Assembly: GCA_030068525.1 (NCBI GenBank)
Contig: JASJOS010000001.1
Span: forward strand, 124,001 to 188,000
Direction: 5' to 3'
Source: Xanthocytophaga flava
GTDB lineage: Bacteria; Bacteroidota; Bacteroidia; Cytophagales; 172606-1
DNA length: 64,000 nucleotides
The notes under the pieces are model-generated. The model did not search any database. It saw only the letters and a list, made by a program, of their open reading frames with translations, and was not told where the DNA came from. Below, in pieces: positions 53,899-59,233 of this stretch (position 1 is the stretch's first letter; every line of letters starts with the position of its first letter). The position numbers and the translations under genes were made by a program.

Positions 53899-54353
53899 TA
53901 CGATCTTTGAGCTTTCTGTTCTTCACTTCTGTAGTGATCGTTTCATGCTCCCGGCCTGTCTATCAGGAGGAATTCTCAATTGTGAATAAGACAAATACTG
54001 TCACACTATTTGAGATAGACCCATTCCCTGTTGAACTGAACAAACAAAGTACTTCCGAAAGATATATTGAAAACTATAGAATAAAGGAGAGCATTGAAGT
54101 AGCAGATTCATCTCGACACACACTGCTTAAAGCAATGGTCGCACCGGACAACTACATACCCGACAACAGTCGTGGATGTGAGTTCTTCCCCAGGTTCGCC
54201 ATTAAGTTTGGCGAAAAAATGGTCACTCTGATAAGTACCAGACCCTGTCCCAAAATTGAATATCACATAACAGGTAAAGATCAAATAAAGATAGTAGACC
54301 TTATTGATAACAGTACTATTGAAAAGAGCCTCATCTACCATATAGGAAACTGA
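53895..54353 (+). CDS. Lipoprotein coupled to the caspase-like gene
   Basis: About 152 residues from the ATG at 53895, which overlaps the caspase-like stop (ATGA). A longer frame from 53847 is ignored because it would overlap the caspase gene by 52 nt. The signal peptide IRSLSFLFFTSVVIVSC ends in a lipobox VSC, so the protein is probably outer- or inner-membrane anchored. The mature part is beta-rich and acidic, without a recognised domain (motifs YQEEFSIVNKTNTVTLFEIDPFPVEL and CEFFPRFAIKFGEKMVTLISTRPCP). A role as inhibitor, substrate or anchor of the caspase-like protein is speculative. Confidence 0.72.
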   Translation: MIRSLSFLFFTSVVIVSCSRPVYQEEFSIVNKTNTVTLFEIDPFPVELNKQSTSERYIENYRIKESIEVADSSRHTLLKAMVAPDNYIPDNSRGCEFFPRFAIKFGEKMVTLISTRPCPKIEYHITGKDQIKIVDLIDNSTIEKSLIYHIGN

Positions 54354-54377
54354 GGTCCCAAAAGAGGAATAAGTAAA

Positions 54378-54944
54378 TTATTCTTTGAGTGTTATGGGTC
54401 GAATCACTTTACAGGGGTTGCCGGCAGCAAATACATCGGATGGAATATCTTTAGTTACTACGCTACCTGCACCGATAACTACTCGGTCTCCAATGGTGAC
54501 ACCAGGACAAATTACAGCGCTCCCTCCTACCCAAACATCTTCTCCAATGGTAATAGGTTTAGCATACTCTACTCCAGAAGACCTTTCTTTGTGATCAATA
54601 GGATGGGTTGCCGTATAGATCTGTACATTAGGTCCGAACATGGTTCTACTACCTATTTTCACATAGGTTACATCCAGTACCACACAATTAAAATTGAAAA
54701 ACACTTTCTCACCCACAATCATGTAACTTCCATAGTCACAATAGAAAGGAGGTTGTAGCCATAAGTCAGGCCCTGCGTTTGGAATCAACTCTTTTAGAAT
54801 CCGCATTCTTTCTTCTGTCTGATCTTCCCGGCTGTCATTTAATTCCTTAATGAGTAATCTGGTTCGAAGACGTTCTTCTACCAGTTCCTGGTCTAGTGGA
54901 TTGTATAACTCTCCAGCGAGCATTTTCTCTTTCTCTGTTTTCAT
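54378..54944 (-). CDS. Maltose/galactoside O-acetyltransferase family protein
   Basis: A 188-residue left-handed beta-helix (hexapeptide) acetyltransferase of the Maa/LacA group. The N-terminal cap MLAGELYNPLDQELVEERLRTR (about residues 8-29) and FYCDYGSYMIVGEKVFFNFNCVVLD (about 67-91) are typical. The catalytic His lies in YTATHPIDHKERSSGVEY (about 110-127). Repeating IGEDVWVGGSAVICPGVTIGDRVVIGAGSVVTKDIP (about 132-167) forms the hexapeptide helix with acetyl-CoA groove. The physiological sugar substrate is not known. Confidence 0.93.
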   Translation of the reverse strand: MKTEKEKMLAGELYNPLDQELVEERLRTRLLIKELNDSREDQTEERMRILKELIPNAGPDLWLQPPFYCDYGSYMIVGEKVFFNFNCVVLDVTYVKIGSRTMFGPNVQIYTATHPIDHKERSSGVEYAKPITIGEDVWVGGSAVICPGVTIGDRVVIGAGSVVTKDIPSDVFAAGNPCKVIRPITLKE

Positions 54945-55082
54945 TGTAGATGAGGGAATTTAGATGGGTAATAAAAAATGAAAAATCTGATCCGGTATCT
55001 ATAAGAAGTTATACCAGATCAGTAAGTAGTTACCTGAAAAATGTATTGTGTTATCGATTCCTGCCACCCCAATCTTTACAGT

Positions 55083-55430
55083 CTACACATTGGGATCAAT
55101 CAGTAAGTAGGCAAATTCACATACCTCCAGTAACTCGGAAGAAGAGCGAGCCGAACGTGTTTTTTTCTTTAATCCTTCAATGGAATCCCGATGGCTTTGA
55201 GACATTTTCCATTTTAAAACTTTATCCAAGGCTAACAGGATATATTCTTTCACCTTTTCGAGTTGTACTTCGGCATCAGGCGAATTGGCAGGGCCACGTT
55301 TGCCTTTTTCTTTATTGATAAGATTAGCCATTACACTGGCATAAGCCCCATTTTTAGTAGTTGGTTTTCCTCCATATACTTGTAGAAGAAAACTTTCATA
55401 TATAGCGGCTAATGATAATGAATCAGACAT
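55083..55430 (-). CDS. Small cytoplasmic protein, unknown
   Basis: A 115-residue acidic-basic protein without a signal peptide. It appears mostly helical (SLSLAAIYESFLLQVYGG; VQLEKVKEYILLALDKVLKWKMS). No family recognised. It is transcribed towards the sugar acetyltransferase gene with a 138-nt gap, so it may be a separate unit. Confidence 0.55.
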   Translation of the reverse strand: MSDSLSLAAIYESFLLQVYGGKPTTKNGAYASVMANLINKEKGKRGPANSPDAEVQLEKVKEYILLALDKVLKWKMSQSHRDSIEGLKKKTRSARSSSELLEVCEFAYLLIDPNV

Positions 55431-55535
55431 ACTAGTAAGTATTAAAACCTAAATTGCTATTGTTATACAACCACAAAGGTAGTTCAATTTACATTCTGCA
55501 TTATCAGCTTATAACGACATATTTATTCGATTCAT

Positions 55536-55742
55536 TTAACTCCTCTTCTTTAGTGATAAAGTAATAACCGAAGCAGAGAGAGGAATGGCCTGATTGTAGT
55601 GAAGCACTTTGTTAATCCTATACCCGTCCTGAAGGGCATTTTGTAATTCGGTATGATATACTCCAATGTGTGCAGCCTGCCCGGCTACAAGATATTCAAT
55701 TTTTATTTCGGAAGCCTGAATAGTAATAATTCGCTCAGTCAT
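55536..55742 (-). CDS. Very small protein, unknown
   Basis: A 68-residue frame (MTERIITIQASEIKIEYLVAGQ...SLKKRS), mixed alpha/beta in composition, with an ATG start and normal-looking codon usage. It lies 105 nt upstream of the 115-residue gene, on the same strand. It may be a real small gene or a chance frame. Confidence 0.4.
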   Translation of the reverse strand: MTERIITIQASEIKIEYLVAGQAAHIGVYHTELQNALQDGYRINKVLHYNQAIPLSASVITLSLKKRS

Positions 55743-55912
55743 TTAGAAAAGATAGTGATAAAAAAATCATAGGTAAAAGTATGAATCTGAACAAAGACAG
55801 GCAAAGCTACTAAAGATGTTGTATTTTACTGTCTCAAAACACTATTTTCTGTAGTATGAATATAATTTTGAGAGCAGAAATGAAATAAATCAAAAAAGAT
55901 TGATAGGTTAAT

Positions 55913-55942
55913 TTTGCTAATATATTTTTTTCTTTACTTTTG
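55913..55942 (+). promoter_or_regulatory. Promoter of tRNA-Leu(CAG)
   Basis: TTTG (55913-55916), an 18-nt spacer and TACTTTTG (55935-55942). Transcription should start about 6 nt before the mature tRNA, which begins at 55955. Confidence 0.75.
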
Positions 55943-55954
55943 CACTCCACTTGA

Positions 55955-56038
55955 GCCGAAGTGGCGGAATTGGTAGACGCACACGTTTCAGGGGCGTGCG
56001 AGGGTAACCTTGTACGAGTTCGACTCTCGTCTTCGGCA
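55955..56038 (+). tRNA. tRNA-Leu(CAG)
   Basis: An 84-nt class-II tRNA. The acceptor stem gccgaag pairs with cttcggc (56031-56037). The D-arm is ggcggaattggtagacgc. The anticodon stem cacgt/gcgtg frames the loop ttcaggg, anticodon CAG, which reads CUG (Leu). The variable arm and a T-arm (acgag/ctcgt, loop ttcgact) are normal. CCA is not encoded. The gene has its own promoter and terminator. Confidence 0.95.
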
Positions 56039-56042
56039 CTAG

Positions 56043-56078
56043 AAAAAACGCTTATTTGTGAAAATAAGCGTTTTTTTT
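56043..56078 (+). terminator. Terminator of tRNA-Leu(CAG)
   Basis: A 15-bp perfect stem (56043-56057 with 56062-56076), 4-nt loop gtga and an eight-T run, 5 nt after the tRNA. Confidence 0.95.
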
Positions 56079-56416
56079 ATGCTCGCTTTCTAATTTGATC
56101 ACAAAACTCACACATATGGCTAAAAAAGTAGCTAAATGGATTTTATCCTACAGATCCTACACTCTTATTTATTTAGCTATAACCATAAGCCAAGAAGATA
56201 CTAAGTAGGACCTGTTTATTTTTACTATCATCACAGACAGATTTTACAGGAGCTATCAATATAGACTGTACTTCCATACTTTTACTATAGTATAATAAAA
56301 TAACATTGCAGGCATTCTACCTAGAAGTAAACTGAGGAATATATATGGAAACTGGTAGTATTGATAGAAGAAAAGTAATGAATTTTAGAGGGCTTTAAAG
56401 AATGTTATTTTCTTAC
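56079..56416. other. 338-bp intergenic region between the two tRNA-type genes
   Basis: AT-rich, with no gene, hairpin or repeat recognised. It ends in the promoter of the tRNA-like gene. Confidence 0.4.
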
Positions 56417-56424
56417 TACATTTG
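56394..56424 (+). promoter_or_regulatory. Promoter of the unusual tRNA-like gene
   Basis: TTTA (56394-56397, one mismatch to TTTG), a 19-nt spacer and TACATTTG (56417-56424, exact -7). Transcription would begin near 56431, just before the acceptor stem at 56435. Confidence 0.65.
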
Positions 56425-56434
56425 TGGCAAGGAC

Positions 56435-56526
56435 TCAGAAGTGGCGGAATTGGAAGACGCTCTCCTGGAGGAGGCGAGAGCAAAATCCAACAGTCTCTCG
56501 TGCAGGTTCAAGCCCTGCCTTCTGTA
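56435..56526 (+). tRNA. Unusual class-II tRNA-like gene (leucine-like D half, irregular anticodon arm)
   Basis: A 92-nt tRNA-like sequence. Positions 56438-56460 match the tRNA-Leu gene (55958-55980) at 22 of 23 bases, including the whole D-arm. The T-arm is perfect (gcagg/cctgc, loop ttcaagc). Acceptor arms pair six of seven (the outermost is T opposite T). A 6-bp variable stem cgagag/ctctcg (56475-56480 with 56495-56500) is strong, but then only 13 nt remain for the anticodon arm. They fold as ctcc/ggag around a tetraloop tgga. If the anticodon arm is forced to 17 nt (56461-56477), the loop is tggagga with G at position 33, anticodon GAG and one mismatched pair. A promoter and a terminator flank it. 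Confidence 0.5.
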
Positions 56527-56540
56527 CCTAACCGTATTAT

Positions 56541-56570
56541 AAAAATCCCAACTGTCATGTTGGGATTTTT
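56541..56570 (+). terminator. Terminator of the tRNA-like gene
   Basis: A 12-bp perfect stem (56541-56552 with 56559-56570), 6-nt loop, ending in a T-run, 15 nt after the tRNA-like element. Confidence 0.9.
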
Positions 56571-57163
56571 CGTTACCAATCAGCATCAATCCGTATCTTT
56601 TTCAGCTTTTCGGATTCTTTCTTCTTCATATCCTACCATGATGAAAACTACTTTAATCTGTTTCTGTCCCCCTCTTATCGCTATATGATATGATAGTATT
56701 TCATTTAGATAGCAGCTGACAACAGAATTGTTCTTGAGGCTCTTATGATGTTCGAGTGGAAGGGTTTATCATGATCGAACTGTCTATAATTCTTTTATGC
56801 GACTACTTTTCAAAACAAAGATCTGCAATATCGTTTTATGAAACATATTTTGATTAACAATCCAAAGGTATAGTACAAATAAGCTTGCTTTAATTATAGG
56901 GCACGGTTAGGATCAATGCTATTTTACTCTTCCTTTTTATAGAATGGAAAAGTAAATCTTGAGACAGATTTGATCAGTTTACGTTAGCATCCTGTTTTAT
57001 TGACTTAGTGTATTCTTTTCTCGAAAAGAATGGAAATATTACAATTATCTCTTAAATTTAAACTTAGCCAACAATAGCTTGCCCTATTTCCCAATGCAGT
57101 ATTTAGTTCATTACAAATACATGGTACTTTTCAAAGAAAAGGCTATATTGACAATTAGGAGAC
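56571..57163. other. 593-bp region without a supported gene
   Basis: AT-rich. A short plus-strand frame starting inside the tRNA-like gene is a chance frame. I see no repeats or hairpins beyond the terminator at its left edge. The last 45 nt include aggaga just before the pseudogene start. Confidence 0.4.
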
Positions 57164-58859
57164 ATGAGAAGGTTCTATCTAGTGTTTTTGGCAAGCATAC
57201 CCTTAATTACCTGTCTGGGACAAACACCTGCAATAGACAGTCTGATAAGGATTTTTCCAACTATCAAATCCCAGGAGTACAAAGAATATTTCAGTAACTT
57301 TGACAAGCAAGTATCTGCACTTCCATTAAACAAGGCGCTTTCTACTATTTCTTTAGTAAAGAAAACTCCTTCTCATAACCAATTCCTTCTTCTGGAATAC
57401 TTCTTTAATATCTCTTTATATCGTACCTACACAAAACATAAAAAATATATCCTCGCAGACAGTCTGCTTCAGCAAAATCTGATCTATACCCGACAACAAA
57501 ATTTACCTATCTGGGAGGCAGAAACATTCTATGAGCTTGGATACCTTTATACAGAGTTGTATAAATACCCGGAAGCAGTTCACTATTTATAGCAATCTGT
57601 CAGGTTATTTCTGCAGGAAGGATGGCAACAGCGAGCATCCACCATACTCTATGACATGGGTTCTACCTGTTATAATTTAAATGAAACACAAGGCTGTGCT
57701 GATTATATTAAAAGAGCTTTACAGATTGGAAAAGATTCACTCTTCCATGTTTATCAAGCCAGTGGAAATAACACATTGGGGTTATTAAAATTCAGGGATA
57801 AACAATACAATGAAGCTATTTCTTTTTATAGAAAGGCATTAAAGATTGCAATGTACGCTAAAGATTCTGCCTGGATTGGTATAACACAAGGAAGCATAGG
57901 CCAATGTCTGGTAACCCTGAATAAACCCGATGAAGCCTTACCTTATTTGCAAAATGCATTGAGAATTAGTAAAAAATATGACGATCAACCCTCTACTACC
58001 CGATCGTATACTGAGTTGGGAAACACTTACAGAAAGTAACAGAATCTATCACTGGCCCGGTTTTACTATCATCAAGGAATAGAATTTGCAAAACAACAGG
58101 AAATAATCAGGTTTTGAGAGATCTGTATTATAATCTCGCTTATACTTATAAAGAAAATAATCAGCCAGATAGTGCCTTTATTTACCTTGAATTATACAAC
58201 AATATTAGCGAATGGGTGTCTCAACAAAACCAGCAAATCGAAATAGCAAAAGCTCAGTCATCCTTTGATCTGCAGAAGAAACAACAACAAGTAAATAAGC
58301 TTCTTGATACGCAACAACGCAACAAACAGATTACTATATTTATATTCATCGTATTGATTTTAGTGGTAATTATATTGATTACTCTTTTGCGGGTTAGGCA
58401 AAAGGTAAAAATCAACAAGCTGTTAACCTCACAGAAAGAAACGCTACAAGAGAAAACAAATCTTTTGGAAATACAACAACAACAAATTGAGCAACAACGC
58501 GATTTGTTGTCTTTACAAAATAAACAGTTACAGGAAAGTCAACAGATTATCTCTTGTCAGAACAAAGAGATTCAACAGAAGAATCAAAATCTGGAAGAAC
58601 AAATCCGAATCCGGACTCAAAACTACAAGAAAACAACCGACAACTTAAAGATTTTGCGTTTATCACTGCTCATAACCTACGCACACCTGTTGTCCAGATA
58701 TTAGGACTAGGACAGTTACTCAGTATGCCCGATAATGAAACAGAAGAAGAAGAACTTTACTTAAATAAAATAATAGAAGTAACTGGTAAACTGGATCAGA
58801 TTGTTAAAGAAATGAATGACATTCTCACCAACGAATTACCTGACAATTTAAAGGACTAG
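57164..58859 (+). pseudogene. TPR / coiled-coil histidine-kinase-like protein, degraded
   Basis: Four pieces together spell one protein. A signal peptide (MRRFYLVFLASIPLITCLGQ) is followed by TPRs, a single transmembrane helix (IFIFIVLILVVIILITLL), a Gln-rich coiled coil and the HisKA-like segment FITAHNLRTPVVQILGL. Lesions are an in-frame TAG at 57590 (CAG would fit), an in-frame TAA at 58037, a -1 frameshift near 58097-58105, and a -1 shift in an A-run near 58618 (caaaactac for caaaaactac). The reading also ends before any HATPase domain. Families of this type normally sense signals through TPRs and phosphorylate a response regulator. Confidence 0.8.
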
Positions 58860-59233
58860 TCATACACAAAACTCATCTGATCATTGTAGCGGCGCTTTTT
58901 GTAATCCCACCATACTTTACACAAGTATATATACTCAAGTTAAGTAAAAAGCTTGACATGGTTTAAAGACTCTATTCTTTAAGTCAAATCCACTATAAGA
59001 TTACTTTCAAATAAAATATTTCAATCAAAAAGAATATATTTGCAGTATAAACTATACTATTCCCATCCTAAAGGATAAAAATAAAAAAGTAGAGTGAAAA
59101 TAGACTGAAAGATAAACATCCAGTTCATAAGAGAATATTATTTGATACATCAGGAAGTAAATACAAACTTAGTAGACAGGTATTAAATCACTGGTAATTA
59201 GCCTAAAAATTGGCTTATAAAAAACGCTCCACA
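58860..59233. other. 374-bp intergenic region
   Basis: AT-rich spacer between the pseudogene and the next ORF. No RNA gene, repeat or convincing promoter was identified. Confidence 0.4.

Follow-up and report, generated by a model that had tools for sequence, protein, structure and literature searches.

What kind of RNA is encoded where a tRNA-Leu-like body lacks an ordinary anticodon arm? The question is raised by a 92-nt element, here called C, at positions 56435-56526 on the forward strand of the window, by which we mean the whole 64,000-nt stretch of DNA that was analyzed. Its D and T arms read as intact. An earlier note on this DNA had described a promoter (TTTA, 19 nt, TACATTTG), the 92-nt body, and a 12-bp hairpin as one transcription unit, and all three are present in the sequence:

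55955-56039, + strand, ordinary tRNA-Leu(CAG), a neighbor outside the element (ARAGORN and the Rfam tRNA model)
56394-56424, + strand, candidate promoter of the Bacteroidota type, with TTTA at 56394-56397, 19 nt, and TACATTTG at 56417-56424 (read in the sequence)
56435-56441, + strand, 5' strand of the acceptor, TCAGAAG; pairs 2-7 form and 1-72 is U.U
56444-56460, + strand, D arm with a GCG/CGC stem and GGAA in the loop
56462-56473, + strand, replacement of the anticodon arm: CTCC (56462-56465), tetraloop TGGA, and GGAG (56470-56473), by unconstrained folding
56475-56500, + strand, long variable arm with a CGAGAG/CTCTCG stem, 6/6 pairs
56502-56518, + strand, T arm, GCAGG-TTCAAGC-CCTGC, T stem 5/5 pairs
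56519-56526, + strand, 3' strand of the acceptor, CTTCTGT, plus A at position 73 (sequence and fold)
56541-56552/56559-56570, + strand, 12-bp hairpin AAAAATCCCAAC/GTTGGGATTTTT, a probable terminator (read in the sequence)

C begins 395 nt after the tRNA-Leu(CAG) gene. Its D half matches that of the gene at 22 of 23 positions, as the note had counted, the sole difference being GGAAGAC for GGTAGAC. The perfect T arm and the 6-bp variable stem that it described were also recovered (5/5 and 6/6 pairs), and the D stem is paired at 3/3 positions. The acceptor is paired at 6/7, with a U.U at 1-72 that the note had not mentioned. At the 3' end, position 73 is followed by CC and then T, and CCA is not encoded. 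When C was folded without constraints, the minimum-energy and centroid structures agreed on a cloverleaf carrying CTCC-TGGA-GGAG, which is the 4-bp stem with a tgga tetraloop proposed from the letters. The folding energy is unexceptional (z, -0.76; 40 of 200 shuffles fold equally well).

C scores 29.2 bits against the Rfam tRNA model (RF00005), barely over the gathering score of 29, and the neighboring tRNA-Leu(CAG) scores 48.8. A canonical anticodon arm has 5 bp, a 7-nt loop, and U33; C has 4 bp and a tetraloop. ARAGORN nonetheless calls C a tRNA-Leu(gag), and this call speaks for a tRNA-Leu(GAG) that works despite its unusual arm. By our reading of the anticodon position that ARAGORN assigns, such a tRNA would require G33 and a single mismatch in the stem, as the note had stated for its forced 17-nt arm. 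Regular tRNA-Leu genes are present in the genome for CAG, TAG, GAG, CAA, and TAA (two copies for TAA), so that leucine tRNA with the anticodon GAG exists elsewhere, and the relatives of C described below carry 8- to 9-nt loops or a 71- to 72-nt domain at this place. A working tRNA-Leu(GAG) is therefore very improbable. Among the options that the note had listed, a working unusual tRNA fits badly, whereas a tRNA used outside translation and a regulatory tRNA mimic both fit. The body retains the features that tRNA-body proteins recognize but lacks those that the ribosome reads, and a decoding role is therefore unlikely. The reading that we prefer, with a probability of about 70%, is that C is a functional, stand-alone, non-decoding RNA of tRNA shape, in which the tRNA body serves as a scaffold or as a decoy.

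A DNA search of relatives found that the 3' 25 nt of C recur elsewhere together with the D half. The family so defined has five members, three in the genome of origin (G000) and two in a complete congener (G002):

Window 56435-56526, + strand, member C (G000)
G000:C33:197933-198027, member B
G000:C62:55435-55556, member A
G002:C10:338582-338677, orthologue of B
G002:C31:11048-11170, orthologue of A

No family member was found in a third genome of the genus, which is 72% complete. Plasmid records were considered as relatives and rejected, as the 12 listed of 204 match the hairpin region alone. A covariance model of the shell (R1), built from the five members, was run over 8 genomes; the members scored 89 to 108 bits, high by construction, and the next best match (51.5 bits) is a tRNA-Leu(CAG) according to ARAGORN. 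Stricter filters were applied to scans of over 40 genomes. Of 390 genomes of the order, six gave a match at an E value of 1e-8, two of them being the genomes of the genus already known and the other four having, on reading, ordinary tRNA-Leu; in 395 genomes of the class, at 1e-10, the genome of origin was the sole match.

Across all five members the acceptor, D, and T shell is nearly constant, and a canonical anticodon arm is absent throughout. The T arm and acceptor, GCAGGTTCAAGCCCTGCCTTCTGT, are identical in four of the five, the fifth having two changes in the T loop; the T half of C is identical to that of A and to that of the G002 copy of B. The D arm of each member carries GGAA, where the tRNA-Leu genes of the same genome for CAG, GAG, CAA, and TAG have GGTA. 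In the anticodon region, by contrast with the constant shell, there is either a 4-bp stem, whose loop measures 4, 8, or 9 nt, or else a domain of 71 to 72 nt. C and B share the CTCC/GGAG stem, with a 4-nt loop in C and loops of 8 and 9 nt in the two species of B. Because the relatives share this stem with a varying loop, the tetraloop fold is preferred over the forced 17-nt arm. A has a multibranched domain that folds into several hairpins. ARAGORN forced a Leu(AAG) call on the G002 copy of B, reported the G000 copy without an anticodon, and found no tRNA in the lineage A copies. The note had also pointed to complementarity with the anti-Shine-Dalgarno; GGAGG is present in C and absent from the other four members, and we take it to be incidental.

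Another role outside translation would be that of an amino-acid donor, charged by LeuRS and used by a transferase. LeuRS is not known to read the anticodon, and C has a class II body with a long variable arm, the tRNA-Leu D loop, and A73, all of which would suit such a donor. Position 73, however, is A in C only; each of the four copies in lineages A and B has U or C there (over the five members: A, U, C, U, U). Since this position varies among the host copies, one shared charging identity is argued against, and we regard a donor as distinctly unlikely.

Conservation of the shell was measured in the two sister lineages. In lineage A, the G000 and G002 copies agree at 48/50 shell positions, 57/72 aligned columns of the center, and 32/40 of the upstream 40 nt, which include the promoter, against 41/111, 46/100, and 39/105 (37 to 46%) in the further flanks. 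In lineage B, they agree at 46/50 shell and 38/45 center positions, with 26/40, 74/112, 73/109, and then 36/117 in the flanks. The upstream 40 nt of B (the 26/40) are kept no better than its flanks, and the contrast between shell and flank is smaller for B because its flanks are better kept than those of A. Acceptor pairing is 7/7 in all members except C, with its U.U. Both acceptor changes in lineage A preserve pairing, and the D stem of lineage B shows a double change, GCG:CGC to GTG:CAC, with pairing kept. Between C (CGAGAG/CTCTCG) and B (TGATAG/CTATCA), all six pairs of the variable stem are kept and two have changed on both sides. As a statistic, covariation over the five sequences is indecisive (the score was matched or beaten by 57/500 shuffles, and the number of double-change pairs by 366/500), a weakness that follows from there being only five sequences.

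The null of the earlier note was a lone decaying duplicate, either of tRNA-Leu or of another family member. In favor of decay, C is known from a single genome, has the U.U at 1-72, scores at the Rfam threshold, and folds with ordinary energy. It also lies 395 nt past a tRNA gene whose 3' side is a different sequence in G002, with an integrase-like frame judged by eye. Over window 56040-57200, no orthologue of C was found in G002, only the 25 nt common to the family; either a loss there or a gain in the genome of origin may account for this. Taken strictly, the conservation check that the note proposed thus goes against C, while lineages A and B are conserved, and for the random changes in acceptor and T arm that the note expected of a decaying copy, these lineages, with shells at 48/50 and 46/50, are the opposite. 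The fully paired D, T, and variable stems of C, the variable-stem double changes relative to B, the T half identical to that of A and G002 B, and the presence of promoter and hairpin also stand against decay, and a lone duplicate is weakened by two more members in the same genome with orthologues in the congener. We consider decay unlikely, although C may be a copy that died recently in a family still alive. Because C has no orthologue in G002, the case for its being alive leans on A and B. The integrase-like frame occupies the place of C, 3' of tRNA-Leu(CAG), in G002:C2:141600-145700, and, by eye, this may be an integration site.

The signals around the copies were compared as well. TAnnTTTG is the -7 promoter element. 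It lies 4 to 12 nt upstream of both A copies, the G002 copy of B, and tRNA-Leu(CAG). Within the family, C included, it precedes four of the five 5' ends by 4 to 10 nt; the G000 copy of B has TATATTTA in its place. Both strands of the window hold 94 matches to TAnnTTTG against 74 expected, and because the motif is this common by chance, the promoter of C carries weight mainly through its presence in relatives. The generic terminator scan did not report the 12-bp hairpin 3' of C, probably because the T run lies inside the stem. By eye, similar hairpins stand 3' of both lineage A copies, and none was seen 3' of the B copies.

In the gene neighborhoods, A lies downstream of a frame resembling a PAS/histidine kinase (named by eye) in both species, and the frame upstream of B, again in both, is short and conserved. 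Among the 18, 12, and 9 frames near C, A, and B in the genome of origin, nothing is common to all three. The histidine-kinase-like frames near A and C resemble each other (27% over 75 aa; E, 4e-6), and such frames are a very common kind; between the neighbors of A and B there is one weak match (34 aa; E, 0.001).

The same architecture was found in viral contigs. A first scan with a gapped pattern of the shell was run on IMG/VR viral contigs and on a genome collection. It returned 14 viral contigs, 9 of which lack a canonical anticodon arm on reading; three of these 9 carry one same element, and the acceptor of one (L088) closes uncleanly. In the genome collection, of 257 billion bases according to its description, the pattern returned 15 stretches, 14 of them ordinary tRNA-Leu and 1 non-canonical. 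This last match lies on a contig of length 56306, as long as one IMG/VR contig, and may itself be viral. A pattern for one common acceptor, GTCAGGTGGYGNAATTGGNANAC, matched at least 120 stretches in viral contigs. The phage pattern matched none of 395 genomes of the phylum, a count per genome and not per base, so that by itself it is no proof of enrichment.

Among the matches listed, 102 viral loci were parsed into 114 places with a D half: 14 looked canonical, 85 (80 unique) had a closing T arm and acceptor without a canonical anticodon arm, and 15 lacked a clean T arm or acceptor. A later parse of all viral loci gave, among the matches listed, 168 unique elements, 142 of them with an AGTCAGG-like acceptor. 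A loose anticodon-arm test was passed by 11 of these 142 (7.7%), against 5.4% of shuffled inserts, and by 13 of the 26 other elements, again among the matches listed. As a control on the parsing, 121 of 136 D-half stretches among the matches listed had a T arm and an acceptor with at least 6/7 pairs, compared with 2.1% of 2713 trials with shuffled acceptors.

The inserts of the 142 elements, among the matches listed, span 20 to 196 nt. After removal of similar ones 121 were left, and among these listed inserts no common motif was found, the best 8-mer occurring in 4/121. Folding of the listed inserts is mildly better than that of shuffled sequence (138 inserts; mean z, -0.81; 10% below -2). 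In 40 aligned phage shells, 10 of 15 pairs have changed on both sides; pairing of the acceptor and T stem was a selection rule for this alignment (A4), and the shares of paired cells, 98.6 and 100%, partly reflect that rule. An extra pair between positions -1 and 73, seen in 113/141 phage shells among the matches listed, was set aside as evidence, since ordinary tRNAs commonly have U-1 and A73. No protein common to the shell loci was found: among 1498 frames from 106 loci, the largest family occurs in 10 loci. At the gathering level, Rfam reported tRNA alone in 12 loci that carry shells or inserts related to theirs. Some contigs carry several shells; in a 5-kb stretch of IMGVR_UViG_3300035681_000025 (L125), nine acceptor starts each have a closing T arm. 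The nine, spread on one strand over about 4 kb among ordinary tRNA genes with hairpin-rich stretches between, look like a phage RNA island.

Named phages carry such elements too. In the four LoVEphage-type records that were read among five listed (PQ571265, PQ571302, OY725593, and OY731444), a shell with the acceptor GAATAAG/CTTATTC holds an identical 113-nt insert, at 57835-57998 in PQ571265, and no tRNA feature is annotated at the shell in the stretches of these records. Tenacibaculum phage pT24 (LC168164, 190743-193765; L259) has two class I genes labeled "tRNA-Undet", each apparently with an extended hairpin where the anticodon arm would be. The inserts of four viral loci (L163, L202, L212, and L224) are 79% identical over 47 nt to a free-standing sequence of Cellulophaga phages (E, 0.4, insignificant alone), which hints that inserts may exist without a shell. 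Since annotated phages of Bacteroides, Phocaeicola, and Tenacibaculum carry such elements, the question is testable now.

C is itself a class II shell without a canonical anticodon arm, the feature by which the phage class is defined here. A model built from phage shells with the host members held out (R2) ranked C first in its genome at 58.1 bits, ahead of the regular tRNA-Leu(TAA) (57.6) by only 0.5 bit, with B at 57.2 and A, below many tRNAs, at 47.4. Because R2 barely separates C from tRNA-Leu(TAA) and places A below many tRNAs, the likeness that can be claimed between host and phage is one of architecture and not of descent. The phage shells (the AGTCAGG...CCTGACT class of IMG/VR, and one in LoVEphage relatives) keep the D and T arms and the acceptor around a variable insert, as the host family does. 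They differ from it in acceptor sequence and in having A73 in 128/142 cases among the matches listed, against U or C in A and B of the host.

If C is a non-decoding RNA of tRNA shape, it would be transcribed from its own promoter, and the transcript would fold as a tRNA body with acceptor, D, T, and long variable arms, an unrelated hairpin replacing the arm that reads codons. The tRNA-processing machinery would protect the folded RNA and perhaps trim its ends. The body could then serve as a scaffold for whatever replaces the anticodon arm, or it could compete for proteins that grip tRNA bodies. C would have a partner protein and presumably the same role as A and B. A special case within this reading is a decoy against anticodon nucleases or other proteins that attack tRNAs, one that could not be cut at the anticodon. 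The body is kept without a normal anticodon loop and the design turns up again in viral contigs, both of which point that way, while many of the phage inserts have a length and diversity beyond the apparent needs of a decoy; we rate this special case as possible but a minority prospect. For C, with its tiny replaced arm, a decoy is the simpler idea; for A, as for the inserts of the phages, it is a scaffold.

The design in sisters from one genus and in many viral sequences suggests a little-noticed class of tRNA look-alikes. Tentatively, and at somewhat worse than even odds, tRNA bodies may be general scaffolds, with a phage series of shells holding interchangeable inserts and a chromosomal set of at least three in this genus forming an overlooked class of noncoding RNA. 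It would have been overlooked because tRNA finders label its members tRNA, Undet, or nothing. C, for example, is tRNA-Leu(GAG) to ARAGORN, and the four LoVEphage-type shells have no tRNA feature in the stretches read. Such elements would be relevant to genome annotation, to phage-host conflict over tRNAs, and to proteins that bind tRNA bodies.

Other unusual tRNA-like elements were seen in these genomes. At G000:C16:88916-89035 on the - strand (L248), a class I tRNA body has 71 nt between the D and T arms; it is 98% identical in G002, with partial matches in G004 and G007. The motifs TTACTTCT and AATTACC, seen by eye within the body and to either side of it, suggest that its anticodon arm holds a Y-RNA-like module. 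A conserved tRNA-like element at G000:C22:658451-658549 (L244) and G002:C4:304976-305074 (L245) has, by eye, a 6-nt anticodon loop, a long variable arm, and a weak T stem. G004:C1:3244963-3245103 on the - strand (L247) is a 141-nt class II tRNA-like element with a long variable region. Two clusters of aberrant tRNAs, at G000:C14:73000-76500 (L055) and G000:C62:174500-176500 (L056), are unlike the regular set of the host, and L055 includes two with undetermined anticodons.

YrlA-like arrays with permuted tRNA-like domains, all below the Rfam gathering score, occur at G006:C125:107000-111000 (L044) and G000:C10:26000-40000 (L053). A frame upstream of the G006 array encodes what we take to be a Ro60/Rsr-type protein. 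With such arrays in two genomes of the family, the genome of origin among them, C could be thought a relative of YrlA, the bacterial Y RNA, that partners Ro60/Rsr. The arrays have, by eye, a T half, acceptor, and D half in permuted order plus a Y-type stem, whereas C, A, and B are unpermuted, with the D half of C before its T half. The YrlA model (RF02553) gave no match in window 54000-59000 up to an E value of 10, and none up to 0.5 in L039-L042, the loci that hold A and B. Kinship with YrlA is scarcely plausible.

Among known systems, C is like canonical tRNA-Leu (RF00005) in its acceptor, D arm, long variable arm, and T arm, and unlike it in lacking the 5-bp, 7-nt anticodon arm and U33 and in having U.U at 1-72; its sisters depart further, with an 8- to 9-nt loop or a 71- to 72-nt domain. 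YrlA (RF02553), in the available part of PMC7790460, resembles C as a tRNA-like RNA domain outside translation, and the same part of that paper is a printed precedent, for the tRNA-like domain of YrlA, of the idea of a competitor. tRNA-like RNA as a kind is thus known. In the literature searched (open-license papers, preprints not included), we recognized no published description of the present arrangement, which we take to be a new variant. tmRNA has tRNA-like ends around another RNA domain. The likeness to tmRNA (RF00023) lies in those ends; C differs by its normal D stem, and a search of window 54000-59000 with RF00023 found nothing. If tRNA bodies do occur without anticodon arms, they would be a case of tRNA structure put to new use as a chassis for other RNAs. 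Engineered tRNA scaffolds for recombinant RNA are said to work in this way, with the cargo RNA replacing the anticodon arm. The engineered scaffold is man-made, to judge from the available part of PMC3753655, and the elements described here are natural.
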